Positions 3,700 through 24,146 of a stretch of DNA of 64,000 bases are shown here, piece by piece (position 1 is the first letter of the stretch; every line of letters starts with the position of its first letter). Under the pieces are notes generated by a model, which saw only the letters and a list, made by a program, of their open reading frames with translations, did not search any database and was not told the origin of the DNA. The DNA lies in NCBI RefSeq assembly GCF_013334205.1, contig NZ_CP054424.1, forward strand, positions 1,198,001 through 1,262,000, given 5' to 3'. Position numbers and translations under genes: made by a program. The DNA is from Rhodoferax sp. BAB1 (GTDB lineage Bacteria > Pseudomonadota > Gammaproteobacteria > Burkholderiales > Burkholderiaceae_C).

Positions 3700-3739
3700 A
3701 TGTCATGGAGATGTCATGTGGGTGCCACAAAGACGTCAT
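3700..3739 (+). promoter_or_regulatory. Tandem Pho box (four 11-bp repeat units) before the gene at 3763
   Basis: Four 7-bp units start exactly 11 bp apart at 3700, 3711, 3722 and 3733: ATGTCAT, ATGTCAT, GTGCCAC and ACGTCAT. The PhoB consensus is CTGTCAT-N4-CTGTCAT, so three of the four units are close matches. The array ends 23 bp before the gene at 3763. It also lies within 60 bp of arsR on the other strand, so PhoB binding there could touch ars expression. Confidence 0.8.
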
Positions 3740-3762
3740 CAAGCCTGCTCACACTGCAAGCC

Positions 3763-4263
3763 ATGCAGGACTACGGCATCCCCACCCCCCGCGAAGCTGG
3801 CGAGACCCGGCCTGGCCCGGCCATGGGCCGGGAGGCCGGCCGCCTGCGCGATGCCGGCTGGTGGCCCGTGTTCCCGGGGGGCCAGGCGCTGCCGCAGCCT
3901 GCACGCACCCAGGTGCTGCATCACTGGGCGCTGAGCCCCGGGCAGCGCGCCGCCGGCCTGCTGTTCCAGCCGCTGGATGGCAACCCCCGCCACGGTGTGC
4001 TGGCCCTGTTCGTGGACGAGGGCGAGCTGCACGGCGCCATTGAGATCGTGGAGCGCCAGGGGCGCTGGCTGGTCATGCCCGACGGCCTGCGCGCCCGTAC
4101 CCTGGCCGTGGCGGCCATGGCGCGCTCAGGGGGACCGTCCTCGCTGCGCTCCAGCCTGGTGGGCACACCGGACCGGCGCTTCATCTTCTTCAACACCCAG
4201 GGCGACGGCGGCACGGCCACCCTGGTCGAGCGGCGCCGCGATGGAGGCACCGTCGTCACCTGA
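3763..4263 (+). CDS. Hypothetical protein under a predicted Pho box
   Basis: 166 residues from the ATG at 3763 (MQDYGIPTP); the frame extends upstream but would cover the Pho box array, so the shorter start is preferred. I do not recognise the family. There is no signal peptide or membrane segment. The second half looks like a compact beta-rich domain (GVLALFVDEGELHGAIE, then RRFIFFNTQGDGGTATLVER). It is followed by a strong terminator, so it is probably a single-gene transcript. A PhoB site immediately upstream and its position next to lipid-remodelling genes suggest a role in phosphate limitation, but nothing in the sequence gives a biochemical function. Confidence 0.7.
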   Translation: MQDYGIPTPREAGETRPGPAMGREAGRLRDAGWWPVFPGGQALPQPARTQVLHHWALSPGQRAAGLLFQPLDGNPRHGVLALFVDEGELHGAIEIVERQGRWLVMPDGLRARTLAVAAMARSGGPSSLRSSLVGTPDRRFIFFNTQGDGGTATLVERRRDGGTVVT

Positions 4264-4272
4264 CCTCTTGCG

Positions 4273-4297
4273 AGCCCCGCTGAGCCGGGGCTTTTTT
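4273..4297 (+). terminator. Rho-independent terminator after the gene at 3763
   Basis: Stem AGCCCCG (4273-4279) pairs with CGGGGCT (4286-4292) around a 6-base loop, followed by a run of T to 4297. It separates the small Pho-box gene from the olsB-like gene. Confidence 0.9.
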
Positions 4298-4340
4298 ACA
4301 CGCCAACCCGATTCACAGACATCACAAAAGGAGAGAAAAA

Positions 4341-5165
4341 ATGAAAGAACTGCCCAACCCCACCTTCCCGCTGTCTCCCGTTGCCATGCCTCGGGGGTCG
4401 CTTCACCGCCCTGATCAACCGGTCCCTGCGCAAGAGCGCGGCGGCATTGAAGTTTCGTGGGCGCGCCACCTCGATGAAGTCCGTGCGGCGCAGCGCCTGA
4501 GGCACGACATCTTCGCCGGCGAAATGGGCGCGCGCCTGTCCACCACGGTGCCTGGCCACGACGTGGACCTGTTCGACGACTACTGCGAGCACCTGCTGGT
4601 GCGTGACCAGGAGACGCAGCAGGTCATCGGTACCTACCGCGTGCTCACGCCCGAGCAGGCCCAGCGCATCGGCAGCACCTACAGCGAGCTGGAGTTTGAC
4701 CTGACGCGCCTGCGCCCCCTGCGCGAACGCATGGTGGAACTGGGTCGCAGCTGCGTGCACCCGGATTTCCGCCATGGCGGCGTCATCATGGCCCTGTGGG
4801 GGGCACTGGCCGAGTTCATGGTGCGCAACAAGCTCGACACCATGATCGGTTGCGCCAGCATCCCCATGCTGCACAACGGCGTGATCAGCGGTGACGTGGC
4901 GGCCAGCATCTGGCGCCAGGTGCGCGAGACCCATATGGCACCCATCGAGCACCAGGTCTGGCCGCGCCTGCCGCTGCCGGTCGACGAACTCGACAGCCAG
5001 CTGGACGTGGAGCCGCCGGCCCTGATCAAGGGTTACCTGCGCCTGGGCGCCAAGGTGCTGGGTGCCCCGGCCTGGGACCCGGACTTCAACAGCGCTGACC
5101 TGCCCATGCTGATGCGCATCGCTGATCTGCCGGCGCGTTACCGCAAGCACTTCTTCGGCGCCTGA
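4341..5165 (+). CDS. OlsB-like GNAT N-acyltransferase (ornithine lipid synthesis family)
   Basis: 274 residues. The segment ELGRSCVHPDFRHGG (about 133-147) and the preceding VIGTYRVL strand are typical of the OlsB/PF13444-type acyltransferases. These attach a 3-hydroxyacyl chain from acyl-ACP to the alpha-amino group of ornithine, the first step to the phosphate-free ornithine lipid. A good ribosome site (AAGGAGAG) lies upstream of the ATG. It overlaps the next gene in a TGATG-type junction and heads a three-gene operon with a PlcP-like phosphoesterase and an Agt-like glycosyltransferase. The partner acyltransferase OlsA is not in this window. Some family members have other hydroxyacyl acceptors, so the exact product is inferred. 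Confidence 0.75.
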   Translation: MKELPNPTFPLSPVAMPRGSLHRPDQPVPAQERGGIEVSWARHLDEVRAAQRLRHDIFAGEMGARLSTTVPGHDVDLFDDYCEHLLVRDQETQQVIGTYRVLTPEQAQRIGSTYSELEFDLTRLRPLRERMVELGRSCVHPDFRHGGVIMALWGALAEFMVRNKLDTMIGCASIPMLHNGVISGDVAASIWRQVRETHMAPIEHQVWPRLPLPVDELDSQLDVEPPALIKGYLRLGAKVLGAPAWDPDFNSADLPMLMRIADLPARYRKHFFGA

Positions 5166-6037: not shown

Positions 6038-7119
6038 AGCTTGCGCTGGTTACCGATGCCTGGGAGCCCCAGGTCAACGGCGTGGTCACCACGCTGGTGG
6101 AACTGGTGCGTGAGGTGCGCCAGGCGGGGCATGAGGTCGAGGTCATCCACCCCGGCCAGTTCCGCACGCGCCCCTGCCCGGGTTACGCTGGTATCGACCT
6201 GGCGGTGCGGCCGCGCAAGGCGCTGGGCCAGCGGCTGGACGCGCTGGCGCCGCAGGCCATCCACATCGCGACCGAAGGCCCGCTGGGCTGGGCGGCACGG
6301 GCCTATTGCCTGAAGCACGGCCTGGCCTTCACCACCGCGTACCACACCCGTTTCCCGGAAATCCTGCAGGCCGCGCTGCGTGTCCCCTTGTCCTGGGGCT
6401 ACGCGCTCTTTCGCCACTTCCACCGTCCGTCCTCGGGGGTGCTGGTGCCCACGCAGGGTGTTCTGAACCTGCTGCAACAGCGTGGTTTCCGGAACCTGCG
6501 GTCCTGGACGCACGGCGTGGACCTGCGCCTCTTCCCCTACCAGGACGAGGTGCGACCGTATCCCGGGCTGCAGGATCTGCCCCGACCGGTGTCACTGTTC
6601 GTCGGGCGCGTCTCGTATGAAAAGAACATCGCGGCCTTCCTGCAGCTCGACGTACCGGGCGCCAAGATCGTCTGCGGCGTGGGGCCGCTGGAAGCCGCGC
6701 TCAAGGCGCGCTACCCGCAGGTGCACTGGCTGGGCATCCTGCCGCGGGCCGAGCTGGCACAGGTGTACGCTGCGGCCGATGTGTTTGTCATGCCCAGCCG
6801 CTCCGAAACCTTCGGCCTGGTCATGCTGGAGGCCATGGCCTGCGGCACGCCCGTGGCGGCCTACCCTGTGGATGGCCCGCTGGAGGTGCTGGGCCAGCAC
6901 GCCGGCCCGGCCCAGGGCGGGGTGCTGGACGAGGATCTGCAGCAGGCCTGGTACCAGGCCCAGGCCGTGCCGCGCCATGCGGCACGCCAGCGGGCCGAGG
7001 TGTTCAGCTGGGAACAGGCGGCAGAACAGTTCCTGGCCAGCCTGGTGCCGGTCCGGCAGGCCGGGCCCCTGAACGGGCCGCAGAAAAACACTGTCACACC
7101 ATTGTCATCTATGCTGTAA
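6034..7119 (+). CDS. Agt-like GT4 glycosyltransferase (probable diacylglycerol glycosyltransferase)
   Basis: 361 residues, GT-B fold. The N-terminal [16 protein letters not shown] loop resembles that of SQD2/Agt/MgtA-type lipid glycosyltransferases, and [17 protein letters not shown] carries the E-x7-E donor-site motif (about residues 255-270). In phosphate-starved bacteria Agt uses diacylglycerol released by PlcP and UDP-sugars to make mono- and glucuronosyl-diacylglycerol. Four-base overlap with the plcP-like gene argues for coupled translation. The 3' end overlaps the Pho box of ppk (7091-7108). A donor sugar, UDP-glucuronate, would come from ugd at 12292. Confidence 0.8.
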
Positions 7120-7131
7120 ACAATCTGTCAT
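7091..7131 (+). promoter_or_regulatory. Pho boxes before ppk
   Basis: Two pairs of 11-bp-spaced units: CTGTCAC (7091) with TTGTCAT (7102), then CTGTAAA (7114) with CTGTCAT (7125). The first pair is the better PhoB site. The second pair runs into the first possible ppk start codon at 7130, which favours the internal ATG at 7163 as the true start. Confidence 0.75.
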
Positions 7132-9241
7132 GACTTTGCAATCTTCCAGCCTGGATCCCGCCATGTCTGCCGAAAGCGCGCTACGCATCACCGTCCCGGT
7201 CCTGCTGGACCGGGACCAGAGCATCCTGGCCTTCAACTGGCGCGTGTTCGACTGGGCCTGCCGGCCCGAGGTGCCGCTGCTGGAGCGCCTGCGCTACCTG
7301 TGCATCGTCTCGTCCAACCTGGACGAATTCTTCGAGGTGCGGGCCGAACCCCATCTGAGCGCCAAGCAGGGCCAGGACCAGCAGGGGGTCTACACCGCGG
7401 CCTCCTTCGACGCCATGTCGGCAGCCATCCACACCCTGGTGGAGCGCCAGTACGCCCTCTACAACGACGAACTGATGCCAGCCTTCGAGAAACAGGGCAT
7501 CAAGATCATCTCGCACGGCGAGCGCAACACCGCCCAGCGGCGCTGGGTCAAGCAGTATTTCGAGCAGGAGGTGCGGCCCCTCCTGATCCCGGTGGGGCTG
7601 GACCCCTCGCACCCCTTCCCGCAGGTGGCCAACAAGTCGCTCAACTTCATCGTGCGCCTGGGCGGGCACGACGCCTTCGGTCGCGAGAACGACATCTCCA
7701 TCGTCAAGGTGCCGCGGGCCCTGCCGCGCCTGATCCGCCTGCCCGATTCCCTGTGCGGCAAGCGCCGGCTGTTTGTCTCGCTCTCCAGCGTGATCCGCGC
7801 CCACCTGGCCGAGCTGTTCCCCGGGCGCGAGATGAGCCAGTTCTCGCAGTTCCGCGTCACGCGCCACTCCGACCTGGCGGTGGACGAGGACGACGTCAAG
7901 AACCTGCGCACCGCGCTGCGCCAGGGCCTGCAGCACCGCCATTACGGCCAGGCGGTGCGGCTGGAGGTTTCCGCCGGCTGTTCGGAGTACCTGTCCGACT
8001 TCCTGCTGCGCCAGTTCGAACTGCCCGAAGGGGCGCTCTACCGAGTGCACGGCCCGGTGAACCTGGTGCGCCTGAACCAGCTGGTCGACCTGGTGGATGA
8101 ACCGCGCCTGCGCTTCCCGTCCTACAAGCCCTCCTACCCCGGCCAGCTGGTGAGCGGGCAGTCCATCTTCGAGCAGCTGCGGCGTGGCGACGTGATGATC
8201 CACCAGCCCTACGAAAGCTTCGACGGCGTCCTGGATTTCCTGCGCGAGGCCATCAACGACCCGCAGGTGCTGGCCATCAAGCAGACCATCTACCGCACCG
8301 GTGCCAACTCCGTGCTGATGGATCTGCTGCGCGAGGCCGTGCGCCGCGGCAAGGAAGTGACGGTGGTTCTGGAGCTCAAGGCGCGCTTCGACGAAGAGGT
8401 CAACATCAACTGGGCCGAGCAACTCGAATCGATCGGCGTGCAGGTGCTCTACGGCGTGGTCGGCCTCAAGACCCACGCCAAGATGATGCTGGTGACACGC
8501 CGCGAAGGCCGGCACTTCCGGCGTTACGCCCACCTCTCCACCGGCAACTACAACCCGATGACGGCGCGTTTTTACACCGACCTCAGCCACCTCACGGCGG
8601 ACGTGGGGCTGACGGCTGATATCGAACACGTCTTCGTGCACCTGGCCGGCCAGAGCCGCCTGCCGCGCCTCAAGCACCTGTGGGTGGCGCCCTTCCAGCT
8701 GCATCGCAAGCTGCTGGAAAAGATCGAAAGCCTGGGCGTCGCCGCCGCGGCCGGCCAGCCGGCGCGCATCGTCGCCAAGATGAACGCCCTGACCGACGAG
8801 GCCCTGATCCGCGCCCTCATCGCCGCCGGGCGCCAGGGCGTGAAGATCGACCTGATCGTGCGCGGCGCCTGCATGCTGCCCGCGCAGCTGCCGGGCCAGA
8901 CCACGAACATCCGTGTGCGCTCGCTGATCGGGCGTTTCCTCGAACATGCCCGCGTCTTCTATTTCCGCGCCGGCGAGACCGAGGACCTCTACCTCTCCAG
9001 TGCCGACTGGATGAACCGCAACATGCTGCGCCGGGTCGAACTGGCCTGGCCGGTGCTGGACCCGCTGCTGCGTCAGCGCATCGTCGACGAGTGCCTGGTG
9101 GCGGCCATGGGCGACACCCAGGGCAGCTGGGAGTTGCAGCCGGACGGCCGCTACACCAAAGTGGCGCCAGCGACGGGTCGTCCGGCCGTCAGCGCCCAGG
9201 ATGCCCTGATGGCGCGCTACGCACTGAGAGAACTCCGCTAG
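7130..9241 (+). CDS. ppk: Polyphosphate kinase 1
   Basis: 703 residues if started at 7130; the ATG at 7163 (MSAESALRITVP) is at least as likely because the Pho box array overlaps the first ATG. The enzyme forms polyphosphate from ATP through a phosphohistidine. SSNLDEFFEVR near residue 60 is a PPK1 hallmark, and LSTGNYNPMTARFYTD carries the conserved PLD-like region. Phosphohistidine region VGLKTHAKMMLV is present. It is followed without a gap by sixA. Expected location is the inner membrane/cytoplasm. Control by PhoB fits polyphosphate storage during renewed phosphate uptake. Confidence 0.95.
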   Translation: MTLQSSSLDPAMSAESALRITVPVLLDRDQSILAFNWRVFDWACRPEVPLLERLRYLCIVSSNLDEFFEVRAEPHLSAKQGQDQQGVYTAASFDAMSAAIHTLVERQYALYNDELMPAFEKQGIKIISHGERNTAQRRWVKQYFEQEVRPLLIPVGLDPSHPFPQVANKSLNFIVRLGGHDAFGRENDISIVKVPRALPRLIRLPDSLCGKRRLFVSLSSVIRAHLAELFPGREMSQFSQFRVTRHSDLAVDEDDVKNLRTALRQGLQHRHYGQAVRLEVSAGCSEYLSDFLLRQFELPEGALYRVHGPVNLVRLNQLVDLVDEPRLRFPSYKPSYPGQLVSGQSIFEQLRRGDVMIHQPYESFDGVLDFLREAINDPQVLAIKQTIYRTGANSVLMDLLREAVRRGKEVTVVLELKARFDEEVNINWAEQLESIGVQVLYGVVGLKTHAKMMLVTRREGRHFRRYAHLSTGNYNPMTARFYTDLSHLTADVGLTADIEHVFVHLAGQSRLPRLKHLWVAPFQLHRKLLEKIESLGVAAAAGQPARIVAKMNALTDEALIRALIAAGRQGVKIDLIVRGACMLPAQLPGQTTNIRVRSLIGRFLEHARVFYFRAGETEDLYLSSADWMNRNMLRRVELAWPVLDPLLRQRIVDECLVAAMGDTQGSWELQPDGRYTKVAPATGRPAVSAQDALMARYALRELR

Positions 9242-10111: not shown

Positions 10112-10221
10112 GAGCTTGAAGTCGTACGAGTTGGGACAAAAACAGTTTATATAGTTTGATGACCCGGCGCAATCACTGCCGATGCGTGCAATTTTCACGA
10201 AGTCACAAAAGAGAAATACTT

Positions 10222-10239
10222 TTGTCACGCGTCTGACAT
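10222..10239 (+). promoter_or_regulatory. Pho box before the EAL/GGDEF gene
   Basis: TTGTCAC (10222-10228) and CTGACAT (10233-10239) start 11 bp apart; they match the PhoB half-site at 5/7 and 6/7. The site ends 56 bp before the EAL/GGDEF start. Confidence 0.6.
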
Positions 10240-10295: not shown

Positions 10296-12173
10296 ATGCT
10301 GGAAACCCTGTACGTTGCGACGCAGCATGCGCATGCTGCGCAGCGCCCGCCGATGATTGATCACGTCCGCCTTTTCACCCATCAGTTCCTGTCCGCCCTG
10401 AGCGGACGGGACGGCCCGCTGGCTCGCCTGATGCGCAGCGATGCCCTCCATCCGGTGTTCCAGCCCATCGTCGATCTCAAGAGCGCCACGGTGCACGCGC
10501 ACGAGGCGCTGATCCGCGGTCCCCAGGGCAGCCTGCTGCAGTCGGCCGATGCGCTGCTGTGCGCGGCCCAGGCCGAGGGCCTGCTCTACGAATTCGAGCT
10601 GTACTGCGTCTACGTGGCGCTGCGACAGTGGGGACAGCAGCACCAGCCGGGGCGGCTGTTCCTCAACATCAGCGCCCATGCACTGGAGCGGCTGGTGGCT
10701 GTGGACGGCACCCAGACGCTGGCGCGGGCCATGCGCACCCTGGAGGTGTCGCCGCGCATGGTGGTGCTGGAGATCACCGAGCACGAGCGCGTGCACGACA
10801 TGGACGGGCTGGTCGAGGTGGCCCGGGCGCTGCACGCCGTGGGCCTGGCGCTGGCACTCGACGACTTTGGCGACGGCCGCTCCAGCCTGCGCCTGTGGTC
10901 GCAGATCCGGCCCGACATCGTCAAGATCGACAAGTACTTCAGCCGCGACATCAGCTGCAGCGCCGACAAGCTCAAGACCCTGCAGGCCCTGCTGCAGATC
11001 GCCGATGTCTTCGGCACGGCCCTGGTGGCCGAGGGCATCGAGAACGAGGCCGACCTGCGCGTCATCCGCGATCTCGGTTTCAGCTACGGCCAGGGTTATT
11101 TCCTGGGCCGGCCCGACCGGGACGTGCCGTCCGACATGCTGCCCGCCGCCGCCCAGGTGCTGCACGACACGCGGGTGGCGGTGATGCCCGAGCAGCGTTA
11201 CGTGGCCCGCATGGGGCAGCTGCGCCATCTCTCCCTCATCCATGCGCCCGCGGTCGGACGCCACGCCAACAACGACGAGGTGGCCACCCTCTTCCAGGCC
11301 TATCCCGAGCTGCATGCCCTGGCCGTGGTGGACGATGAGCGCCCGCTGGCCATCATCAACCGCCAGCAGTTCATGGACCATTACGCCACCCTGTATTTCC
11401 GCGAGATCTTCGGCAAGAAGTCCTGCCTGCTGCACGCCAACCAGCAGCCGCGGCTGATCGAACGCAATCACGACATCGAGGAGCTGGTCGGCATCCTGAC
11501 CTCGCAGGACCAGCGCTACCTGAGCGACGGCTTCATCGTCACCGAGAACGGCCGCTACGTGGGCCTGGGCACCGGCGAACAGCTGGTGCGCTCGGTCACC
11601 GAACTGCGCCTGGAGGCGGCCCGCCACGCCAACCCGCTGACCTCGCTGCCGGGCAACATCCCGATCAGCCTGCACATCAAGCGCCTGATCGAGAGCCAGG
11701 GCGAGTTCGTCGCCTGCTACATCGACATGAACAATTTCAAGCCCTTCAACGACCAGTATGGCTACTGGCGCGGCGACGAGATGATCCGCCTGCTGGCGCA
11801 ACTGGCCGTGGCGCACAGCGATCCGCAGCGCGACTTCGTCGGCCATGTGGGGGGCGACGATTTCATGATCCTGTTCCAGAGCGACGACTGGGCGCAGCGC
11901 TGCGAGCGCATCGTTCAGGAGTTCGCCCAGCAGGCGCGCGAGCTCTTCGACGAGGCCGCCCGCCTGTGCGACGGCATCCATGCCGAGGACCGGCATGGTG
12001 TCATGCGCTTTTTCCCCTGCACCACGGTCTCCATCGGCGCGGTGCAGGTCGGGCGCCAGGCCTACCGCGACGCGGAGGAGGTGGCCACCCAGGCCGCGCT
12101 CGCCAAGCGCGAGGCCAAGGCTGCGGGCAACGGCCTGTTCGTGATGCCGCGGCGCGCGCCCGTTCCCGCCTGA
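10296..12173 (+). CDS. EAL-CBS-GGDEF c-di-GMP turnover protein
   Basis: 625 residues. An N-terminal EAL domain (about 45-285) retains the expected catalytic set: QPIVD, EALIRG, FLNIS, EITE, LDDFGDG, KIDK and AEGIE, so phosphodiesterase activity is likely. A middle region (about 300-440) resembles a CBS-domain pair, which often senses adenine nucleotides. A C-terminal GGDEF domain (about 445-610) has GGDDF in place of GGDEF; the Asp for Glu change may weaken or abolish cyclase activity. No membrane segments are seen. A second possible ATG lies at 10353 (MIDHVRL). A Pho box upstream suggests induction on phosphate starvation. Confidence 0.88.
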   Translation: MLETLYVATQHAHAAQRPPMIDHVRLFTHQFLSALSGRDGPLARLMRSDALHPVFQPIVDLKSATVHAHEALIRGPQGSLLQSADALLCAAQAEGLLYEFELYCVYVALRQWGQQHQPGRLFLNISAHALERLVAVDGTQTLARAMRTLEVSPRMVVLEITEHERVHDMDGLVEVARALHAVGLALALDDFGDGRSSLRLWSQIRPDIVKIDKYFSRDISCSADKLKTLQALLQIADVFGTALVAEGIENEADLRVIRDLGFSYGQGYFLGRPDRDVPSDMLPAAAQVLHDTRVAVMPEQRYVARMGQLRHLSLIHAPAVGRHANNDEVATLFQAYPELHALAVVDDERPLAIINRQQFMDHYATLYFREIFGKKSCLLHANQQPRLIERNHDIEELVGILTSQDQRYLSDGFIVTENGRYVGLGTGEQLVRSVTELRLEAARHANPLTSLPGNIPISLHIKRLIESQGEFVACYIDMNNFKPFNDQYGYWRGDEMIRLLAQLAVAHSDPQRDFVGHVGGDDFMILFQSDDWAQRCERIVQEFAQQARELFDEAARLCDGIHAEDRHGVMRFFPCTTVSIGAVQVGRQAYRDAEEVATQAALAKREAKAAGNGLFVMPRRAPVPA

Positions 12174-16222: not shown

Positions 16223-16287
16223 GCGCCCATCTTGCGTCGCGTTTATCTCAGTTCGATGACAGCGTGGTATCGCGGCGTCGCAGGCCT

Positions 16288-16313: not shown

Positions 16314-16331
16314 CTGTCATCGTTCTTTCAT
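16314..16331 (+). promoter_or_regulatory. Pho box before the Mpo1-like gene
   Basis: CTGTCAT (16314-16320, a perfect half-site) and CTTTCAT (16325-16331, 6/7) start 11 bp apart. The site lies 72 bp before the GTG start at 16404, and 8 bp from the oppositely oriented site for the glycosyltransferase gene. Confidence 0.75.
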
Positions 16332-16403: not shown

Positions 16404-17051
16404 GTGAGCCAATTCCTGCAAGCCCTCAAGGTCCAGCGCTGGGACGACCACCGCTACTACCACCACAGCCGCATCAACCAGTCCCTGCACCTGTTGAGCG
16501 CCATCTCCTTCCTGGTGGCCTATGCCTTCCTCTTCATCCAGCCGCCGGTGGCCGCGCTCATCGCCTGGCTGGTTTCCATGGTCTCGCGCCAGTCGGGCCA
16601 CTTCTTCTTCGAGCCCAAGGGCTACGACGAGGTGAACCAGGCCACGCACGAGTACAAGGAAGAGATCAAGGTGGGCTACAACCTGCAGCGCAAGGTGGTG
16701 CTCATGGCCGTCTGGGCCGGCCTGCCCGTGGTGCTCTGGCTGCAGCCGGACTTCTTCGGCCTGCTGGAGGCGCACACCCAGCCCAGCGGCTACGTGCTCA
16801 ACGTCGGCTGGCTCTGGCTCTGGCTGGGTGTGGGCGGTCTGGCCTTCCGCGTGCTGCAACTGGCCGTGAGCCAGAGCCTTTACACCGGCATCGTCTGGGC
16901 CACCAAGATCATCACCGACCCCTTCCACGACATCCTGCTCTACTGGAAGTCGCCGCTGTACCTGCTGCAGGGCGAACTGATCGCCAAGCCCGAGTACCTG
17001 CTCGAGGAACGTGCCGAGCACGAGGCCGAACTGGCCCGCCAGCAGGGCTGA
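16404..17051 (+). CDS. Mpo1-like (DUF962-type) membrane protein, possible 2-hydroxy fatty acid dioxygenase
   Basis: 215 residues from a GTG at 16404, which has a good ribosome site (AAGGAG) 5 bp before it; a longer in-frame ATG start at 16296 would run through the Pho box. Around residues 20-30 HHSRINQSLH, and near residue 68 RQSGHFFFE, match the H-x3-N-x3-H and GH-x-x-FE signatures of the DUF962/Mpo1 family. In yeast Mpo1 is an Fe(II) dioxygenase that shortens 2-hydroxy fatty acids. Four or five hydrophobic segments are present. The Pho box and lipid context suggest modification of fatty acyl chains during phosphate starvation. The family call rests on motif memory and should be tested. Confidence 0.6.
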   Translation: MSQFLQALKVQRWDDHRYYHHSRINQSLHLLSAISFLVAYAFLFIQPPVAALIAWLVSMVSRQSGHFFFEPKGYDEVNQATHEYKEEIKVGYNLQRKVVLMAVWAGLPVVLWLQPDFFGLLEAHTQPSGYVLNVGWLWLWLGVGGLAFRVLQLAVSQSLYTGIVWATKIITDPFHDILLYWKSPLYLLQGELIAKPEYLLEERAEHEAELARQQG

Positions 17052-17058
17052 AACCTTG

Positions 17059-17099: not shown

Positions 17100-18746
17100 T
17101 CAGCGCCGCCACAGATGGCGCAGCATCTCCCGCAACAGCCCGCGCTTGATGGACTTGTTCGTCTGGCCCGGCGCCTGCCACCACCAGCCGTCCTGCTGCA
17201 TCTGGCGGGCAGCTGCCACACAACGTTCCAGCATGTCTTCGAAATCGGCATCCGTGAAGTTCAGGCTGAAGATGAAACGGCCCGTGCCCACCCAGCTCAG
17301 GGCCAGGCCATGATCGCGCAGGTAGTACTGCAGCATCCAGTTGTAGCGCGAGGGGCGGGTGTAGCTCAGCGTCCAGACGCTGCTCATGTTCGCCGCTTGC
17401 AGGGGCAGGCCCTCGGCCAGCATGCGGTTGTTGAAGCGTTCGCGCCGTCCGTCCCAGGTGCTGTCCAGATCCTGATAGATCGCGCCCACCTCGGGTGTAT
17501 CCAGCCGGCGCAGGAACTCGTTCATGGCCCCCATCACATAGGGGTGGGCGTTGAAGGTTCCGCGCGCAAAGCAGATGTCAGCGGGTTTGTCCTCGCGGAA
17601 GCGCTGCATCAGCGCCTTCTTGCCGCAGACCACACCCACCGGCAGGCCGCCGCCCAGGGTCTTGCCGTAGGTGACCAGATCGGCCTTGACGCCAAAGTAT
17701 TCCTGCGCGCCGCGCGCCGCCAGGCGGAAACCCAGAAACACCTCGTCGAAGATCAGCACGATGCCGCGCTCGGTGCAGACCTCGCGCAGCTGCTGCAGCC
17801 AGCGCGTGTAGGCCGCCCGGTCGTAGCCCGCGCTGCGGCTGCTGTCCAGCAAAGTGGAATCACCGGGTGCGTTCTTGTTGGGGTGCAGGGCCTGCAGGGG
17901 GTTGATGAGCACGCAGGCGATGTCGCGGCGCGTGCGCAGCACCTTGAGGGATGCTTCATGCATGTCGCGCAGGGTGTAGGTCTCGCGCGGGGGCAGGGGG
18001 TTGCCCGGGCCGGGTTGTACGTCTTCCCACCAGCCGTGATAGGCGCCGCAAAAACGCACCAGGTGGCGTTTGCCCGTGTGGTAACGCGCCAGGCGCACGG
18101 CCTGCATCACGGCCTCGGTGCCGCTCATGTGGAAAGACACGGCGTCCAGCCCGCTGATCTGCTGCAGCCGCGTCACGTTGTCAGCCACGCAGGGGTGGTA
18201 GGCGCCGAGCACGGGGCCCAGGTCCTGCGCAATGCGCGCACCCGCCGCGATGCAGGACTTGTAGAAGTCCATGCCCATGACGTTCACGCCGTAGGAGCCG
18301 GTGAGGTCGATGTAGCGGTTGCCGTCGATGTCCGTCACGCTCACGCCCTCGCTGGCCTGCACAAAACCGCCTACCTGCAGGTGCTGGCGCAGGTAAGGGC
18401 TGAACTGGTAGGGCACACGGTAGGCGCCGGTGAAACGCAGGTCCGGCAGGCCCTCGCGCGCCTCCTTGGTCATCGCGACAGACAAAGGCGCCTTGGCCTG
18501 CAAGCGGCCGGCCAGCGCCAGAAAGCTGGCGCGGCGCTGCTGCGCCACCGTGTCGGGCGCGCCGTCGCAGGCGTAGAAGGTGGCCTCGTCATAGGCGTAA
18601 CCCGGGATCCAGCGCGCCAGCCGCTTGGCCATGCGCGAATGCCCGGCCAGGGACGGGTGCTTGGCGCGCGAGAGTTCGAGCCGGCGTTTGAGCCAGGGCA
18701 GTGTGGCACCGGCAGCGCCGGCGATCCAGGCAAGTTCGTAAGTCAT
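17100..18746 (-). CDS. Class III PLP-dependent aminotransferase (HemL-like)
   Basis: 548 residues, about 100 more than glutamate-1-semialdehyde aminomutase because of an N-terminal extension. VSFHMSGTEAVMQAVRLAR is the cofactor phosphate region, FCGAYHGWWED the conserved tyrosine-histidine segment, LIFDEVFLGFR holds the PLP aspartate, and TYGKTLGGGLPVG the Schiff-base lysine. HemL itself is normally elsewhere, and the long N-terminus suggests another substrate. A three-unit Pho box lies 63 bp upstream on its strand, and psd diverges from it. A role in making an amino-containing headgroup or recycling ethanolamine-type amines under phosphate stress is a guess. Confidence 0.8.
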   Translation of the reverse strand: MTYELAWIAGAAGATLPWLKRRLELSRAKHPSLAGHSRMAKRLARWIPGYAYDEATFYACDGAPDTVAQQRRASFLALAGRLQAKAPLSVAMTKEAREGLPDLRFTGAYRVPYQFSPYLRQHLQVGGFVQASEGVSVTDIDGNRYIDLTGSYGVNVMGMDFYKSCIAAGARIAQDLGPVLGAYHPCVADNVTRLQQISGLDAVSFHMSGTEAVMQAVRLARYHTGKRHLVRFCGAYHGWWEDVQPGPGNPLPPRETYTLRDMHEASLKVLRTRRDIACVLINPLQALHPNKNAPGDSTLLDSSRSAGYDRAAYTRWLQQLREVCTERGIVLIFDEVFLGFRLAARGAQEYFGVKADLVTYGKTLGGGLPVGVVCGKKALMQRFREDKPADICFARGTFNAHPYVMGAMNEFLRRLDTPEVGAIYQDLDSTWDGRRERFNNRMLAEGLPLQAANMSSVWTLSYTRPSRYNWMLQYYLRDHGLALSWVGTGRFIFSLNFTDADFEDMLERCVAAARQMQQDGWWWQAPGQTNKSIKRGLLREMLRHLWRR

Positions 18747-18809: not shown

Positions 18810-18838
18810 TTGACAGCCTTGTGAAAACCAGATGACAT
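18810..18838 (-). promoter_or_regulatory. Pho box before the class III aminotransferase
   Basis: Reading the minus strand, ATGTCAT (18832-18838), TTTTCAC (18821-18827) and CTGTCAA (18810-18816) start 11 bp apart. The first unit overlaps the start codon of the divergent psd gene, so PhoB binding could also reduce psd expression. Confidence 0.75.
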
Positions 18839-19695
18839 TCAAAACATTCCGCGATCGCCTCCTGCAGCAGGAAGGCCTGAACTTCGTGCTTACCAACCGC
18901 CTGCCCCGCGTGGCGCTGACCCGCTTCATGGGCCGTTTCAGCAAGATCCGCCAGCCACTGGTGCGTGATGCCTCCATTGCTCTGTTCAAGTTCTTCGGCG
19001 ACCTGGACCTGAGCGAGGCGAAAAAACAGAGCTTCGACAGCCTGCACGACTGTTTTGTACGTGAACTCAAGGACGGTGCCCGGCCCTTCAACGCCGATCC
19101 CCGGGTGGTGTGTAGCCCCAGCGACGGCATCGTGGGCGGCCATGGCCGTATCGAAGGCGACGAACTGCTGCAGATCAAGGGCATGCCCTACAGCCTCACC
19201 GAGCTGCTGGGCAGCAAGGAACTGGCCGCGCAGCACCAGGGCGGCAGCTACGTCACTCTGCGCCTGCGCGCCAGCATGTACCACCGCTTCCATGCGCCGA
19301 CCGATTGCACCGTGAAACGCGTCACGCACATCCAGGGCGATATGTGGAACGTCAACCCCATCGCGCTCAAGCGCGTGCCCAGCCTCTACTGCCGCAACGA
19401 CCGTGCCGTGATTGAGGCTGAGTTGCCTTCAGGCCAGGCGCTGACCATCGTCCCCGTGGGTGCCATCCTGGTGGCCAGCGTACGCCTGCATTTCCTGGAC
19501 CTGAACCTGCACCATGACTACCGGGGCGAGCAGGTGATCGATTGCGATGCGACCCTGAAGCGAGGGCAGGAGATGGGCTGGTTCGAACACGGCTCGACCA
19601 TCGTGGTGCTGGCGCCGAAGGGGATGGAGTTGGTGGAGGGCCTGGAGACGGGAACGGAGGTGAGGGCGGGACAGGCCTTGCTGCGGCGGGTTTGA
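18832..19695 (+). CDS. psd: Phosphatidylserine decarboxylase proenzyme
   Basis: 287 residues, the usual length for the membrane-bound proteobacterial type. WFEHGSTIVVL near residue 245-255 contains the GST self-cleavage site that makes the pyruvoyl group, and SMYHRFHAP the conserved histidine. It decarboxylates phosphatidylserine to phosphatidylethanolamine at the inner membrane. The start codon lies inside the Pho box of the divergent aminotransferase gene. If PhoB represses psd from there, phosphatidylethanolamine synthesis would fall as phosphate-free lipids rise. Confidence 0.95.
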   Translation: MTFKTFRDRLLQQEGLNFVLTNRLPRVALTRFMGRFSKIRQPLVRDASIALFKFFGDLDLSEAKKQSFDSLHDCFVRELKDGARPFNADPRVVCSPSDGIVGGHGRIEGDELLQIKGMPYSLTELLGSKELAAQHQGGSYVTLRLRASMYHRFHAPTDCTVKRVTHIQGDMWNVNPIALKRVPSLYCRNDRAVIEAELPSGQALTIVPVGAILVASVRLHFLDLNLHHDYRGEQVIDCDATLKRGQEMGWFEHGSTIVVLAPKGMELVEGLETGTEVRAGQALLRRV

Positions 19696-19825: not shown

Positions 19826-20194
19826 ATGAACTCTTGGGTCAACCCGATGATTCACCAATACATTCGAATCTTCTGCCTCGGATTGCTTCTCAGCCCACTG
19901 TCTGCCCTCGCCACTGACGTACAGCTGCTTTGCACGAAGACAAGCGGCCGCGGGATCTCCGAGTGGGTTGTCCGCATCTGGCTCTCCGATCGGTTGATGG
20001 TGGTCAATGACGTTGAATTGACGGGATACGATGTCGTCGGTTCGGAGATCATTGCCCACGACGAACGGGGCCGAGGAGTCACCACCTACAGTGTGAACAG
20101 GGTGAGCATGAGCTTCAACGTGATCTATGGCGTCAATCGCAACGGATTCGACGAAGCAAAGGGCACATGCCGGAAGGCAGAAAACAAGTTCTGA
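19826..20194 (+). CDS. Hypothetical secreted protein
   Basis: 122 residues with a convincing signal peptide (hydrophobic IFCLGLLLSPLSALA, cleavage after ALA near residue 30). The mature part is short, with two cysteines, and has lower G+C than its neighbours, which may indicate acquisition. No recognised domain. The second in-frame ATG (MIHQYIRIF, 7 codons later) is an equally good start. Confidence 0.6.
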   Translation: MNSWVNPMIHQYIRIFCLGLLLSPLSALATDVQLLCTKTSGRGISEWVVRIWLSDRLMVVNDVELTGYDVVGSEIIAHDERGRGVTTYSVNRVSMSFNVIYGVNRNGFDEAKGTCRKAENKF

Positions 20195-20644: not shown

Positions 20645-21310
20645 ATGACCTTATCCCCTACCTCTTTGCCGCGCCGTCGCCTGCTGGCCATGTTGACGGC
20701 CATGGCAGCCGCCGCCATTTTGATTCCCGCCTGCAGCAAGCGCACCCCCAAGGCCCAGTCACTGCCCGCAGGCAGCACCGTGCTGACCCTTGGCGATTCG
20801 CTGACCTCCGGCGTCGGTGCCACGCCAGACACGGCTTACCCCGCAGTGCTCCAGTCCCTCACGGGCTGGCAGGTGGTGAACGGCGGCGTCTCGGGCGACA
20901 CCACAGCCCAGGCGCTGGCACGACTGCCTGGCCTGCTGCAGGAGCACCAGCCCGCGCTGGTCATCGTGAGCATCGGCGGCAATGACTTGCTGCGCCAGAT
21001 GAGCGCGGCCGGGGCCAAGGAAACGATCCGAGAGATCAGCCGAACCGCCAGCGCCAGTGGTGCCCAGGTGCTGCTGGTGGCGGTGCCCCAGGTCTCGCTG
21101 CTGGCGGCCGGCACGGGTAGCCTGAAAGACCACCCGCTGTACGCCGAACTGGCGGAGGAATTGAAACTGCCGCTGCACGCGGACGGCTGGGCCAGCGTGC
21201 TGTCCCAGCCCGGCCTGCGCGCCGACACCGTGCACGCCAACGCCCAAGGTTATCGCCAGTTCGCGCAAGGGCTGGCGCAGGCGCTGCGCCAAGTCGGGTG
21301 GCTGGTTTGA
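20645..21310 (+). CDS. SGNH-family esterase/thioesterase (TesA-like) lipoprotein
   Basis: 221 residues. All four SGNH blocks are visible: GDSLTSG (catalytic Ser), NGGVSGDTT (Gly), SIGGNDLLR (Asn) and DTVHANAQGY (Asp/His). The N-terminus has twin arginines and a hydrophobic stretch ending IPACSK, a plausible lipobox, so the enzyme is probably a membrane-anchored periplasmic lipoprotein rather than a soluble TesA. Family members hydrolyse acyl-CoA, aryl esters and lysophospholipids. The lipid context makes lysophospholipase activity attractive, but no Pho box is seen here. Confidence 0.85.
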   Translation: MTLSPTSLPRRRLLAMLTAMAAAAILIPACSKRTPKAQSLPAGSTVLTLGDSLTSGVGATPDTAYPAVLQSLTGWQVVNGGVSGDTTAQALARLPGLLQEHQPALVIVSIGGNDLLRQMSAAGAKETIREISRTASASGAQVLLVAVPQVSLLAAGTGSLKDHPLYAELAEELKLPLHADGWASVLSQPGLRADTVHANAQGYRQFAQGLAQALRQVGWLV

Positions 21311-21326: not shown

Positions 21327-22823
21327 TCAGCCCGCGCACTCCACCCGCAAGGCCCACGCCGTCTTCTGCCAGGCCTGCACTTCCTCCATCAGCAGGTAAG
21401 CCGACTGCGGGTACTTGGCGACCCAGTCGGTGCGGCAGTCGAGCTGCACCGCATGCCCGCCATCCCACTCGATCCGCAGGCCCTGCAGGTCCGGGTCGCG
21501 CCGGGCGTGGCAGAGGATGACGGCCAGGCGCAGGGCCAGCAGCTGCAGCACGAAGGCTGCGTCGTCGAACGCCAGGTCCAGCTTGCGCAGCTTGCCGCGG
21601 TGGCCCAGCACGAGCTGGCCCAGGCGGTGCAGTTCGTTCATAGTGAAACCGGCGGCGTCGGCGTTGTCCAGGATGTAGGCGCCGTGCTTGTGGTAGTCGC
21701 TGTGCGAGATGGCGCTGCCGATCTCATGCAGCTGCGCGGCCCAGCCCAGCTTGCGCAGGGCGCGTTCCAGTTCCTCGGGTTCGCCCGGGCCGGCCAGCTG
21801 GCGCAGCAGGTGGTGCGCCACCTTGCGCACGCGCTGGGCCTGGGTCGGGTCGGCGTTGAAGTTGCGCGCCAGGCGCAGCACGCTGGTACTGCGCTGGTCG
21901 CTCTGTTCGTGCTCGCGATCCAGCAGGTCGTACAGGGCACCGTGGCGCAGCGCGCCCTGGGCCACGTGCATTTCCTCGATGCCCAGCAGCGAGAAGAGGG
22001 CGCGCAGCACGCTGACACCGCCGCCGATGACGGCGCGCCGGTCGTCCTTCATGCCGTCGATGCGCAGGCGCTCGGCGCTGCCGGCCTTGAGCAGGCGCTC
22101 CAGCAGCCAGTCCAGGCCCTCCTGCGTGATCAGGCCCTCGGCCCAGCCGGCGGCCTGCAGCACGTCGCCCACGGCGCCCACCGTGCCGGAGGAGCCGTAG
22201 GCCACATCCCAGTCTTCGCGGCGGCAACTGGTGAGGGCTTCATCGAGCACGGCCTGGGCCGCCACCTCGGCGGTCTCGAAGGCCTCGGCGCTGAAAACGC
22301 CTGCGGGGAAATAACGCATGGACCAGGCCACGCTGCCCACACGGTAGGAGTCCATGAAACGCGGGCGGTAACCCTGGCCCAGGATGAGTTCGGTGGAGCG
22401 CCCGCCGATGTCCACCACCAGGCGGCGCTCGTCGGATTGCGGCAGCAGGTGGGCCACGCCCTGGTAGATCAGGCGCGCTTCCTCGCGGCCGGAGATGACG
22501 TCGATGGGAAAACCCAGGATCTTCTGGGCGCGCTCCAAGAAGACCTCGCGGTTGCGCGCTTCGCGCAGGGTCTGGGTGGCGACGGCGCGCACCTGGATTT
22601 TCCTGAAACCGGCCAGGCGTTCGGCAAAACGGCCCAGGCAGTCCCAGCCGCGCTGCATGGCTTCTTCGCCCAGGTTGCGGTCTTCATCCAGGCCGTTGCC
22701 CTGGCGCACGGTTTCCTTGAGGTATTCGCGGCGCTTGAGCAGGCCGTGGTCGAGTTGTGCGATTTCAAGCCGGAAGCTGTTGGAGCCCAGGTCGATGGCG
22801 GCGAGTTCGGTTCCGTTTTTCAT
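21327..22823 (-). CDS. ppx: Exopolyphosphatase (Ppx/GppA family)
   Basis: 498 residues. AAIDLGSNSFRLEIAQ at the N-terminus is the actin-fold phosphate-1 motif, VVDIGGRSTELILG the phosphate-2 motif, and the C-terminal half is the HD-like helical domain. The length matches Ppx (about 510). It removes terminal phosphate from polyphosphate and may also cleave pppGpp. In related genomes ppk and ppx are near phoR; here they flank the inserted gene cluster on its pst side. It is 43 bp downstream of the solute-binding gene on the same strand. Confidence 0.9.
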   Translation of the reverse strand: MKNGTELAAIDLGSNSFRLEIAQLDHGLLKRREYLKETVRQGNGLDEDRNLGEEAMQRGWDCLGRFAERLAGFRKIQVRAVATQTLREARNREVFLERAQKILGFPIDVISGREEARLIYQGVAHLLPQSDERRLVVDIGGRSTELILGQGYRPRFMDSYRVGSVAWSMRYFPAGVFSAEAFETAEVAAQAVLDEALTSCRREDWDVAYGSSGTVGAVGDVLQAAGWAEGLITQEGLDWLLERLLKAGSAERLRIDGMKDDRRAVIGGGVSVLRALFSLLGIEEMHVAQGALRHGALYDLLDREHEQSDQRSTSVLRLARNFNADPTQAQRVRKVAHHLLRQLAGPGEPEELERALRKLGWAAQLHEIGSAISHSDYHKHGAYILDNADAAGFTMNELHRLGQLVLGHRGKLRKLDLAFDDAAFVLQLLALRLAVILCHARRDPDLQGLRIEWDGGHAVQLDCRTDWVAKYPQSAYLLMEEVQAWQKTAWALRVECAG

Positions 22824-22866
22824 GCGCGAGGCTTTTGGGGACGCAGGGATCGTACCTTGTCCCGGG

Positions 22867-24009
22867 TCATCCCAGGATACGGCCGTTGGCGCCCAGCATG
22901 CTTTGTGTCACGTAGGCGCTGGTACGCCGCTGCGACTGGAAGCTGATGCGAAAGCCGGCCAGGTCCAGCACGCTGCGCTTCTGGAAGGCCTGCAGCACCT
23001 GGGCCCGTGTGGCCGCGGGCTCCAGGCCCAGCAGCACCTCTTGGGCATAACGCGCTGCAATGTAGCCGGCCAGGCTCTGGGGGGTGGGCGGTTCGTCGAA
23101 CAGGCGCGTCAGCGTTTCGCGGTAGGCGCGCACGATGGGCAGGCTGGAGGTGACCATGGGCACGACCTGGGTGGCCATGACGGGGGTGTTGCGCGACTGG
23201 CCCAGCTGGTTGAGGGTCTGCAGGTTGACGTCGGCCAGGCCGATGACGTAACGCTGGCGGTCCTGCTGTTCCAGTCCCAGGGTGAACTGGGCCAGCTCCG
23301 GCGTGCCGCCGATGAAGAGCAGGATGGCCGGGGTCTGCGGCGTGAGCCTGCGGCCCAGTTGCTGCAGGGGCCCATTGGGGGCGTAGGGGGCGAGCCGCAA
23401 GCCGAGGTCACGGGCAATGCGGCTGACTTCCGGGTGGTAGAGCACCTGCTCCGGGGCCGAGGCGTAGACCACCCCCAGCTCGGCCACGCCGATCACCGAC
23501 AGCGAGCGCAGGGCGTGGGCGATCTGCTCCTGGCGGGAGGCAAAGATGGGAAAGGTCCGCTCGGCGCCGGCGATCACGTCCTGATGCAGCCAGGGCGCGA
23601 CGTGGGCGATGTCCAGCGCCTCCTGGCCCAGCAGTTGGACCAGGCTGGCCGCGGTGCGGTCGCCGGCCGTGCCGCACAAGGCCAGGCACTGGGGGCTGGC
23701 ACGCACGCTGTCCAGGGCCTGGCGCAGGCTGGCCGGGCTGCCATCGACCTCCAGCACGGTGTGCTGGACGGGGCGGCCGCGCATGCCGCCGCGGGCATTG
23801 AAGTCCTGCCAGGCGGCGCGCGAACCGATCAGGAAGTCGCGCGAGACGTCCAGCTGGCTGGCCGAAATATCCACGATCTGGACGATTTCCGGGGCGCGGG
23901 GGGAGGGCGTGGCGACTTTCTGGGCCTGGACGGGCAGCGCGGGCAGCAGGGCGCCGAGCGTGGCGCCGAGCAGGAGCCGGCGCCGTGGCGGGCAGGTGGG
24001 TGAGGGCAT
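22867..24009 (-). CDS. ABC transporter solute-binding protein, LivK/Peripla_BP_6 type, under a Pho box
   Basis: 380 residues with a signal peptide (RRRLLLGATLGALLPALPVQA; the arginines make Tat export possible). The mature part shows the type I periplasmic-binding fold (EIVQIVDISASQLDVSRDF, LALCGTAGDRTAASL, PVMATQVVPMV). LivK-like proteins usually bind branched-chain amino acids, amides or urea. No permease or ATPase gene adjoins it. A four-unit Pho box lies on its strand 43 bp upstream, facing away from the pstS promoter, so its ligand may be a phosphate- or nitrogen-containing organic compound released in phosphate starvation. That is inference. Confidence 0.8.
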   Translation of the reverse strand: MPSPTCPPRRRLLLGATLGALLPALPVQAQKVATPSPRAPEIVQIVDISASQLDVSRDFLIGSRAAWQDFNARGGMRGRPVQHTVLEVDGSPASLRQALDSVRASPQCLALCGTAGDRTAASLVQLLGQEALDIAHVAPWLHQDVIAGAERTFPIFASRQEQIAHALRSLSVIGVAELGVVYASAPEQVLYHPEVSRIARDLGLRLAPYAPNGPLQQLGRRLTPQTPAILLFIGGTPELAQFTLGLEQQDRQRYVIGLADVNLQTLNQLGQSRNTPVMATQVVPMVTSSLPIVRAYRETLTRLFDEPPTPQSLAGYIAARYAQEVLLGLEPAATRAQVLQAFQKRSVLDLAGFRISFQSQRRTSAYVTQSMLGANGRILG

Positions 24010-24052
24010 CGTGTTTGGCAGAGGGGAAAGCGGCCCAGCTTAGGCAGGCCTC

Positions 24053-24092
24053 ATGACTTTTTCGCGAATACTTCATGTCTTTTTCATGACAG
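24053..24092 (-). promoter_or_regulatory. Tandem Pho box before the LivK-type gene
   Basis: On the minus strand CTGTCAT (24086-24092, perfect), AAGACAT (24075-24081), TATTCGC (24064-24070) and AAGTCAT (24053-24059) start 11 bp apart. The array ends 43 bp before the start codon at 24009. Confidence 0.75.
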
Positions 24093-24128
24093 AATTGCGA
24101 ATGCGCCAGCTTGGGGTTGTTGCAGTTG

Positions 24129-24146
24129 ATGTCACACGGTTGACAT
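24129..24146 (+). promoter_or_regulatory. Pho box before pstS
   Basis: ATGTCAC (24129-24135) and TTGACAT (24140-24146) start 11 bp apart, 51 bp before the pstS ATG, followed by an A-rich stretch. This is the expected position for the pst operon and serves as the internal reference for the other sites. Confidence 0.85.

Follow-up and report, generated by a model that had tools for sequence, protein, structure and literature searches.

A candidate PhoB-controlled lipid module with an aminotransferase and an Mpo1-like protein in a putative phosphate-starvation locus of Rhodoferax sp. BAB1

We analysed a 64-kb stretch of the genome of Rhodoferax sp. BAB1 (NZ_CP054424.1, a single contig of 3.82 Mb; positions 1,198,001 to 1,262,000), here called the window, in whose coordinates positions are given unless stated otherwise. 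An island at 3700-24146 (0.5% of the genome), between glmM and pstS, is probably part of a composite phosphate-starvation locus under PhoB that carries a conserved lipid module. The module comprises genes for a phosphatidylserine decarboxylase (psd2), a class III aminotransferase (AT3), an Mpo1-like protein (mpoL) and the second of two GT4 glycosyltransferases (agt2). That it serves PhoB-controlled lipid remodelling appears highly probable from sequence; that it makes a new amino-lipid is a tentative proposal, and the order of steps in such a route is more tentative still.

PhoB-controlled lipid replacement is already known. The part with AT3, mpoL and psd2 is new, and a search of the open-licence PMC literature found no publication linking the three. 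The available portion of a paper on serpentinite lipids (PMC10667739) names neither Hydrogenophaga nor PlcP. Phosphate-free membrane lipids help bacteria to cope with scarce phosphorus in fresh water, soil and the sea, and few routes to them are known; the module offers a short, testable gene list (AT3, mpoL, psd2 and agt2). If the lipid is made, existing environmental lipid datasets may already contain it as a mass without an assignment. The proposal, if true, would also correct the name "glutamate-1-semialdehyde 2,1-aminomutase", which one source gives to many AT3-type proteins.

Conserved linkage of psd2, AT3, mpoL and a GT4 gene

Genes were called from open reading frames (ORFs), codon-position G+C and Pfam/NCBIfam scans. 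The module occupies the following positions.

14993..16222, minus strand: agt2, second GT4 glycosyltransferase (domain scan)
16404..17051, plus strand: mpoL, Mpo1/DUF962-like helical (membrane) protein of 215 amino acids (aa), weak PF06127 match
17100..18746, minus strand: AT3, class III pyridoxal phosphate (PLP) aminotransferase, PF00202 117.9 bits (above the cut-off of 30.5)
18832..19695, plus strand: psd2, phosphatidylserine decarboxylase, TIGR00163 177.5 bits (above the cut-off of 111.75)

For mpoL, the alternative frame 16346-17059 was discarded, as it gave erratic orthologue extractions (92-807 aa) and codon composition favours 16296-17051, within which the likely start is GTG 16404.

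AT3 and mpoL occur together almost without exception. Among 200 genomes of the order, AT3 is found in 23 (E <= 1e-100), mpoL in 24 (E <= 1e-20) and both in 23; G085, with mpoL alone, is the only genome with one of the pair. Loci were fetched for 21 of the 22 AT3-positive order genomes besides the window's (the 22nd is G036), and psd and mpoL lie beside AT3 in all 21. A GT4 gene that best matches agt2 is near this triad in 18 of the 21, placed differently in two of these. The metallophosphoesterase gene plcP (E <= 1e-50) is present in 99/200 order genomes, namely 21/23 with AT3 vs 78/177 without (Fisher P = 1.0e-5, uncorrected for relatedness); of the 21 genomes that have both, 14 have it no more than 20 kb from AT3.

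An AT3 alignment used to scan named genomes retrieved 579 loci. The best 80 of these, in which many contigs end early, contain psd in 77, mpoL in 75, agt2 in 70, lplT in 42, plcP in 26, ugd in 23, olsB in 11, ppk in 7 and pst genes in 3-14 (pstB cross-matches other ABC ATPases). The usual order is psd(<) AT3(>) mpoL(<) agt2(>) lplT(<), with neighbours on opposite strands, so that the genes do not form an operon. Loci titled Limnohabitans, Hydrogenophaga, Curvibacter, Variovorax and Paucibacter carry the module, and the closest named matches of AT3 and mpoL include Hylemonella and Curvibacter entries. A neighbour survey, which covered the island's proteins and recurrent clusters, identified two recurrent genes outside the island's gene list in other Burkholderiales: PhoX in 11/80 loci (L108, L109, L111, L112, L120, L129, L132, L136, L144, L152 and L162) and PPK2 in 9/80 (L113, L122, L123, L134, L140, L151, L159, L168 and L169). 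Other recurrent neighbours (APH, ExbD and a TRAP transporter, 7/80 loci each) led nowhere.

The triad psd-AT3-mpoL also occurs in other proteobacterial classes. A 397-genome sample of the phylum has AT3 in 28 genomes (fusion query, E <= 1e-70); the 27 loci outside the window contain free or fused mpoL in 26, psd in 25 and a GT4 gene in 21 (some only 25-31% identical), and the one locus that lacks mpoL is on a contig of just 4.4 kb. The order, class and phylum samples have some genomes in common.

Eight genomes of a 377-genome sample of the class contain AT3 (E <= 1e-80), and six of the eight do not belong to the order. Two of those six have AT3 and mpoL joined in a single open frame, which encodes 742 aa (L233:8265-10493) in one and 738 aa (L234:8507-10723) in the other. 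Both fusion genes adjoin plcP, agt1 (the first GT4 gene) and genes for a DUF3419 protein, presumably of the BtaA family, and a methyltransferase that we take to be BtaB; one also adjoins phoU-pstB-pstA-pstC, and the other an alkaline phosphatase gene. At least 120 homologues (the query's own record included) cover the fusion protein at 92% or more, and the matches listed include entries named Candidatus Binatia, Gammaproteobacteria and Burkholderiales.

The other four class loci are unfused. The first holds, within 16 kb, ars genes, plcP, agt2, AT3, mpoL, a PhoX match (33.1 bits), psd, phoU, pstB and a gene for a two-acyltransferase protein, presumably of the OlsF type. The second has phoU, ppk, plcP, agt1, AT3 and mpoL; the third agt1, mpoL, AT3 and psd. 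In the fourth, genes for AT3, a GT4-containing protein of 902 aa, psd and mpoL follow one another on the same strand. This 902-aa protein (L232:9844-12552) has its GT4 domain at the C terminus, and its N-terminal, histidine-rich part appears PHP-like by eye and has no Pfam match; it may substitute for PlcP plus Agt.

These arrangements mark psd2-AT3-mpoL(-GT4) as a conserved gene set in its own right, one that often lies near genes for phosphorus-free lipids or phosphate and that has Pho boxes in part of its range. A preliminary description of the island, made from its letters, had proposed lipid replacement as its theme, which fits the lipid-gene content and conserved linkage; it had also counted AT3, the Mpo1-like gene, psd and the second GT4 as new members of the programme, a view that the conserved adjacency, the fusion and the Pho boxes in other lineages (below) support.

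Pho boxes in the window, in other lineages and in the genus

Pho boxes were scored as two CTGTCAT units at 11 bp (CTGTCAT-N4-CTGTCAT, matches out of 14), with spacings of 8-16 as controls. At >=11/14, the window contains nine matches at 11 bp, eight of them inside 3700-24146 at six promoters, and 2-4 matches at the other spacings. At >=12/14 there are five matches at 11 bp and 0 or 1 at spacings 8-10 and 12-16. At >=10/14 the count at 11 bp (35, vs 14-32 at other spacings) is not separable from chance. The preliminary description had listed nine phased sites in the island; eight stand at >=11/14, and nine are reachable only by adding chance-level 10/14 sites (3711, 18810/18821, 24086 and 24129).

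3700..3728, plus strand: Pho box 1, ATGTCAT-GGAG-ATGTCAT, 12/14, with a 10/14 continuation
7091..7142, plus strand: Pho box 2, overlapping matches at 7091, 7114 and 7125, from the end of agt1 to the start of the ppk frame
10222..10239, plus strand: Pho box 3, 11/14, upstream of the EAL-GGDEF gene
16245..16262, minus strand: Pho box 4, 12/14, towards agt2
16314..16331, plus strand: Pho box 5, 13/14, the window's best, towards mpoL
18810..18838, minus strand: weak Pho-box-like repeat between AT3 and psd, 10/14, alone not significant
24075..24092, minus strand: Pho-box match between the binding-protein gene and pstS, 11/14
24129..24146, plus strand: Pho-box match before pstS, 10/14 only

The position of Pho box 2 points to a ppk start near 7163, not at 7130.

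A scan of the whole genome, proposed earlier as the way to see whether such sites are just as common elsewhere, found them enriched in the island. With up to three mismatches there are 129 matches vs 54 for the reversed pattern, and with up to two there are 14, five of them within the island. Binomial P values are 6e-7 (8/129) and 8e-9 (5/14), which are optimistic as overlapping matches are counted as independent. The genome's two one-mismatch sites are the mpoL box and a site upstream of phoX (PF05787, 448.8 bits), which has a second, overlapping match and is the strongest outside the island. Another site with up to two mismatches lies upstream of an ABC transporter ATPase gene. The remaining outside sites are inside genes or before genes without a clear phosphate tie, such as adenylate kinase, and several of the 14 may be chance matches. 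One site with up to two mismatches lies in the gap upstream of a desaturase/AurF-like gene (L014:1557-2414, genome position near 3516762; PF03405, 28.2 bits), which is a possible further regulon member. Phased boxes above chance and the same motif at phoX and pstS are consistent with PhoB-type control, as had been proposed.

Boxes recur at the module beyond the genus. In the best 80 loci, the agt2-mpoL intergenic region has a match at 11 bp in 44/72 cases (1-9/72 at the other spacings from 7 to 16; 1.4 in mononucleotide shuffles), and the psd-AT3 region in 32/76 (0-8 at other spacings; 0.3 in shuffles). Coding controls gave 0/80 for AT3 and 0/76 for mpoL. A second sample of the order has agt2-mpoL boxes in 11/16 regions at 11 bp vs 0-2 at other spacings. 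In genus g489, of the same phylum and another class (10 genomes), a box precedes AT3 in 10/10 (up to 13/14) at 11 bp and in 0/10 at spacings 8-10 and 12-14; upstream of the GT4 gene the counts are 9/10 at 11 bp and 3/10 at 13 bp. Among 21 distant loci, AT3 has a box in 5/21 at 11 bp (0-1 at other spacings) and plcP in 1/5.

The remaining genes of the region are as follows.

696..3640, minus strand: ars operon, ArsC PF03960, ACR3/SBF PF01758, LMWP-type ArsC PF01451 and ArsR PF12840/PF01022
3763..4263, plus strand: hypA, 166 aa, first gene behind Pho box 1
4341..5165, plus strand: OlsB-like N-acyltransferase (GNAT), Acetyltransf_5 PF13444 120.8 bits
5165..6037, plus strand: PlcP-like metallophosphoesterase, PF12850/PF00149
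6034..7119, plus strand: agt1, GT4 glycosyltransferase (Agt-like), PF00534/PF13439
7130..9703, plus strand: ppk and a SixA-like phosphatase gene (domain scans)
10296..12173, plus strand: EAL-GGDEF protein (cyclic di-GMP signalling), PF00563 148.6 and PF00990 54.2 bits
12268..13743, plus strand: ugd, UDP-glucose dehydrogenase type, TIGR03026 424.6 bits (cut-off 189.8)
13754..15019, plus strand: LplT-like lysophospholipid transporter, NF008397 454.5 bits (above the cut-off of 297)
20645..21310, plus strand: GDSL lipase (TesA-like), PF13472 81.7 bits, without a Pho box
21327..22823, minus strand: ppx, PF02541 245.8 bits, without a Pho box
22867..24009, minus strand: periplasmic binding protein (Peripla_BP_6), 59.7 bits
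24195..30799, plus strand: pstS-pstC-pstA-pstB-phoU-phoB-phoR, PhoB TIGR02154 329.6 bits (cut-off 296.2)

Apart from the weaker Mpo1-like call, the genes named in the preliminary description are borne out by Pfam/NCBIfam, glmM included; its list had missed the ars operon at 696-3640. The 5' end of this operon shares an intergenic region with Pho box 1. Arsenate is a phosphate mimic, and the pairing may be functional; the operon's LMWP-type ArsC has a long N-terminal extension. The SixA-like protein reaches 68.6 of the 74.5 bits of TIGR00249, and ugd, below the cut-off of the TuaD model, is its own genome's only match at E <= 1e-10. Two ORFs of atypical codon composition have no family match; the one at 9735-10154 has tblastn matches of 48-74% at the same place in relatives, and the other is at 19826-20194. 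In a plasmid search with pst-pho DNA, the ten matches listed are short and lie in the pstB part.

To follow the boxes within the genus, upstream regions of the window and up to 16 same-genus genomes were scored at spacings 8-14 (>=11/14). At 11 bp, boxes were found before hypA in 9/9, before arsR (the same region) in 13/13, before mpoL and pstS in 8/9 each and before the Peripla_BP_6 gene in 4/9. EAL-GGDEF has 11/16 (0-1 at other spacings). The ppk count is 13/17 at 11 bp, but also 10/17 at 12 bp and 6/17 at 9 bp, and that of olsB is 4/15 at 11 bp and also 4 at 12 bp. The counts for agt2 (8/13) and agt1 (3/13) contain cross-matches between the GT4 genes where one is missing, the agt2 match being the agt1 gene in G009, G004, G024 and G002, and the reverse holding in G017, G020, G023, G008 and G003. 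Not every island member has its own site in the genus: no box was found in this sample upstream of plcP (0/17), sixA (0/14), lplT (0/10), phoU (0/10) or phoB (0/10), and ugd has one in 1/8. ppx (0/11) and the GDSL lipase gene (0/6) were likewise dropped as box-bearing regulon members.

Some boxless island genes can be read as operon members, and the likely transcription units are hypA(-olsB-plcP-agt1), ppk-sixA, EAL-GGDEF(-ugd-lplT), agt2, mpoL, and pstS onwards. A terminator-like hairpin with a T-run follows hypA (about 4272-4297, by eye), so expression of olsB from Pho box 1 would require read-through. plcP adjoins agt1, and the nearest box of its putative unit, before hypA, is two genes and this hairpin upstream. 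hypA itself has no Pfam/NCBIfam match; eight orthologues of 165-166 aa were extracted, with weak 39% matches in G004, G024 and G002.

Enzymes, a possible amino-lipid route and its alternatives

AT3 has a conserved N-terminal extension of about 110 aa and a YGKT motif (K362). Residues D334, E335 and K362 are invariant in 18 sequences; we take K362 to be the PLP lysine and D334/E335 to be the DE motif. Residues 3-28 are modelled as a helix with moderate confidence and are hydrophobic by eye; this helix could place AT3 at the membrane. AT3 was rejected as the HemL of the heme pathway, as it scores 168.1 bits against TIGR00713 (cut-off 527.3) and a HemL that exceeds this cut-off, with 582.8 bits, is encoded elsewhere in the genome. 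By sequence, its best solved relative is the aminotransferase domain of mycosubtilin synthase, at 153.6 bits vs 135.1 for the best HemL. According to the accessible part of the published description, that domain aminates a beta-ketothioester bound to an acyl carrier protein (PMC3870968).

In mpoL, residues D14, D15, H16, H20, N25, Q26, H29, R62, Q63, G65, H66 and E70 are invariant in 10 sequences, free and fused, a pattern that suits a metal site. The PF06127 match spans residues 16-70, the region with the invariant histidines; all 12 aligned mpoL members match this profile at E <= 10 (best 6.7e-5). The model is helical, with a predicted local distance difference test (pLDDT) score of 82.9. 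The genome encodes two Psd proteins; psd2 is 36% identical to the other copy and 62-63% identical to the psd beside AT3 in g489.

In the mechanism we propose, low phosphate would lead PhoB to switch on PlcP, which would cut phospholipids to diacylglycerol. The GT4 enzymes would add glucose or, supplied by ugd, glucuronate to the diacylglycerol, the OlsB-like enzyme would begin an amino lipid, and Ppk would store phosphate. mpoL and AT3 would act as one two-step unit: mpoL would introduce a carbonyl into a lipid or acyl substrate by oxidation, and AT3 would convert this carbonyl to an amine, the product being a phosphorus-free amino(glyco)lipid that replaces phosphatidylethanolamine. Psd2 would feed the phosphatidylserine/ethanolamine pool or process it. 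On a speculative reading, AT3 and mpoL might each catalyse one half of a PhoB-controlled route, so far unrecognised, by which Proteobacteria make phosphorus-free amino-lipids of a new class. Oxygen-dependent formation of a carbonyl on a lipid, followed by transamination, would then stand beside PlcP-Agt, ornithine-lipid and betaine-lipid synthesis, a placement we hold with equal reserve.

Several observations weigh against this proposal. The place of Psd2 is the weakest point of the mechanism, and psd was not found beside the two fusion genes or in L231, where the contig ends. plcP is unmatched in 2/23 AT3-positive order genomes and near the triad in 2/27 loci of the phylum sample, which leaves Burkholderiales and a few Gammaproteobacteria as the basis for linking it to the triad. 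Although the fold search also favours the mycosubtilin synthase domain over HemL for AT3, the margin is small (E 2.6e-27 vs 7.4e-25). The window's mpoL scores 19.8 bits against PF06127, below the gathering cut-off of 24, and its model has no match among PDB folds better than E 1.3; the Mpo1-like call of the preliminary description is plausible but weak. Parts of the Pho-box evidence are weak as well. In the genus sample, AT3 and psd have upstream matches in 1/9 each and no significant box. In the second order sample the psd-AT3 region matches in 6/21 at 11 bp vs 4/21 at 9 bp. Upstream of mpoL, the distant loci match equally at 11 and 14 bp (4/19 each), and g489 matches in 1/10 at 11 bp, yet in 9/10 at the meaningless 14-bp spacing; a chance match can therefore be inherited, and counts within one genus amount to nearly one observation. 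Finally, the two AT3-mpoL fusion genes have no upstream match of >=11/14.

The block might instead salvage or degrade the products of PlcP and the lipase (head groups, lysolipids and fatty acids), which we regard as unlikely. LplT and the GDSL lipase would then recycle lysolipids, AT3 would handle an amine such as phosphoethanolamine, mpoL would shorten hydroxy fatty acids and Psd2 would refill phosphatidylethanolamine. This agrees with an LplT that scores above its cut-off and is encoded near the core in 42 of the best 80 loci, with the phosphatidylethanolamine that Psd2 makes if it works as named, and with the family name of mpoL, since yeast Mpo1 acts in fatty-acid alpha-oxidation. However, the nearest solved relatives of AT3 are biosynthetic aminotransferases, no phospholyase is named among the PDB matches listed (60 of 83), and the AT3-mpoL fusions sit among lipid-making genes.

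It is quite improbable that the block modifies a cell-surface glycolipid by adding an amino sugar to lipid A or to a glycolipid of the outer membrane, with charge balance rather than phosphorus saving as the tie to phosphate. A GT4 gene does lie beside an aminotransferase gene, the lineage with the 902-aa protein has AT3, a GT4 domain, psd and mpoL on one strand, and a C-6' sugar aminotransferase is among the relatives of AT3; its score, however, is far below that of the acyl-thioester type (79.7 vs 153.6 bits).

The glmM-pst interval and known lipid-replacement systems

glmM and phoB are on one contig in 32/40 genomes of the family, at a distance of 4.6-5.6 kb in 11, 7.9 kb in one, 10-29 kb in 16 and at least 59 kb in four. 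Of the 16 long intervals we fetched 14 (G241 and G260 in part), the other two being those of the window and G002. olsB is present in 13 of the 14 (not G255), ppk in 13 (not G248), and sixA and ppx in all; plcP with agt1 is found in six (G230, G252, G260, G225, G248 and G258) and ars genes in seven (G257, G230, G252, G260, G255, G248 and G258). The two short intervals compared (G251 and G261) have none of olsB, ppk, sixA, ppx, plcP-agt1 or ars. The backbone olsB-(plcP-agt1)-ppk-sixA-ppx between glmM and pst is thus a recurrent feature of the family; the ugd-lplT-agt2-mpoL-AT3-psd-GDSL block alone looks like an addition, rather than the whole island being a single insertion as first described.

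Within the genus, G016, G014, G010, G013 and G017 have the block between sixA and ppx, preceded by EAL-GGDEF except in G017, and its first part is present in G020 and G023, whose contigs end there. G003 and G008 have a shorter version without ugd and GDSL. In G005, G021 and G022 the contigs do not extend far enough to judge. The two GT4 genes behave as if partly redundant: agt1 was not detected after plcP in G017, G020, G023, G003 and G008 (L069, L071, L074, L083 and L079), which keep agt2; G009, G004, G024 and G002 have only agt1 at the locus, and G015 has neither GT4 gene in its stretch. At the usual place in G010 (L065/L066), phoU-phoB-phoR are 73-85% identical, pstC and pstA 31-34% and pstB 60%, with no match to pstS; the pst transporter seems to have been replaced there.

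These gene orders also bear on the possibility that only the known PlcP-Agt and OlsB remodelling operates and that AT3, mpoL and psd2 are unrelated neighbours near pst: G009, G004, G024, G002 and G015 have the backbone and lack the block at this place (the locus alone being covered), and lplT, ppx and GDSL have no boxes, but G003 and G008 carry olsB-plcP-ppk-EALGGDEF-lplT-agt2-mpoL-AT3-psd with neither glmM nor pstS detected in the 40 kb fetched, AT3 and mpoL are together in 23/24 genomes with either, and Pho boxes mark the block in other genera and AT3 in another class, which makes this very unlikely.

The proposed AT3-mpoL-psd2 route has partial likenesses to five known systems. To the Mpo1/DUF962 family (PF06127), mpoL is linked by the weak profile match; it is below the cut-off, has 215 aa vs the profile's 95 positions and is tied to an aminotransferase. 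The aminotransferase domain of mycosubtilin synthase A (PDB 6kfm, 6kfu) is AT3's best match in sequence and fold, whereas AT3 is free-standing, with an N-terminal extension of its own, and is encoded among lipid genes rather than in a polyketide synthase/nonribosomal peptide synthetase setting. Betaine-lipid synthesis (DUF3419) is encoded beside the AT3-mpoL fusions, with plcP and agt1; in the window, by contrast, no DUF3419 is among the Pfam matches of the proteins scanned, and AT3 and mpoL are separate genes. The likeness to the ornithine-lipid system lies in an olsB-like gene that, in Burkholderiales, has putative Pho boxes. The OlsB equivalog cut-offs, however, exceed the scores found here (150.7 vs 350 bits; 146.7 vs 320), and the only good box in the window is before hypA, not directly before olsB.

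A further parallel is in Pseudomonas aeruginosa, where, in the part of the account available, the diacylglycerol that PlcP produces receives glucose or glucuronate from two GT4 enzymes when phosphate is limiting, yielding glucose and glucuronate lipids, and the promoters contain the Pho box consensus CTGTCATNNNNCTGTCAT (PMC8528852). As in that system (PA3219, PA3218 and PA0842), plcP and one GT4 gene lie together here and a second GT4 gene lies elsewhere. That same part of the account mentions no aminotransferase or Mpo1-like gene (PMC8528852). In the window, unlike in P. aeruginosa, the second GT4 gene is accompanied by ugd, psd2, AT3 and mpoL, with ppk and pst nearby.

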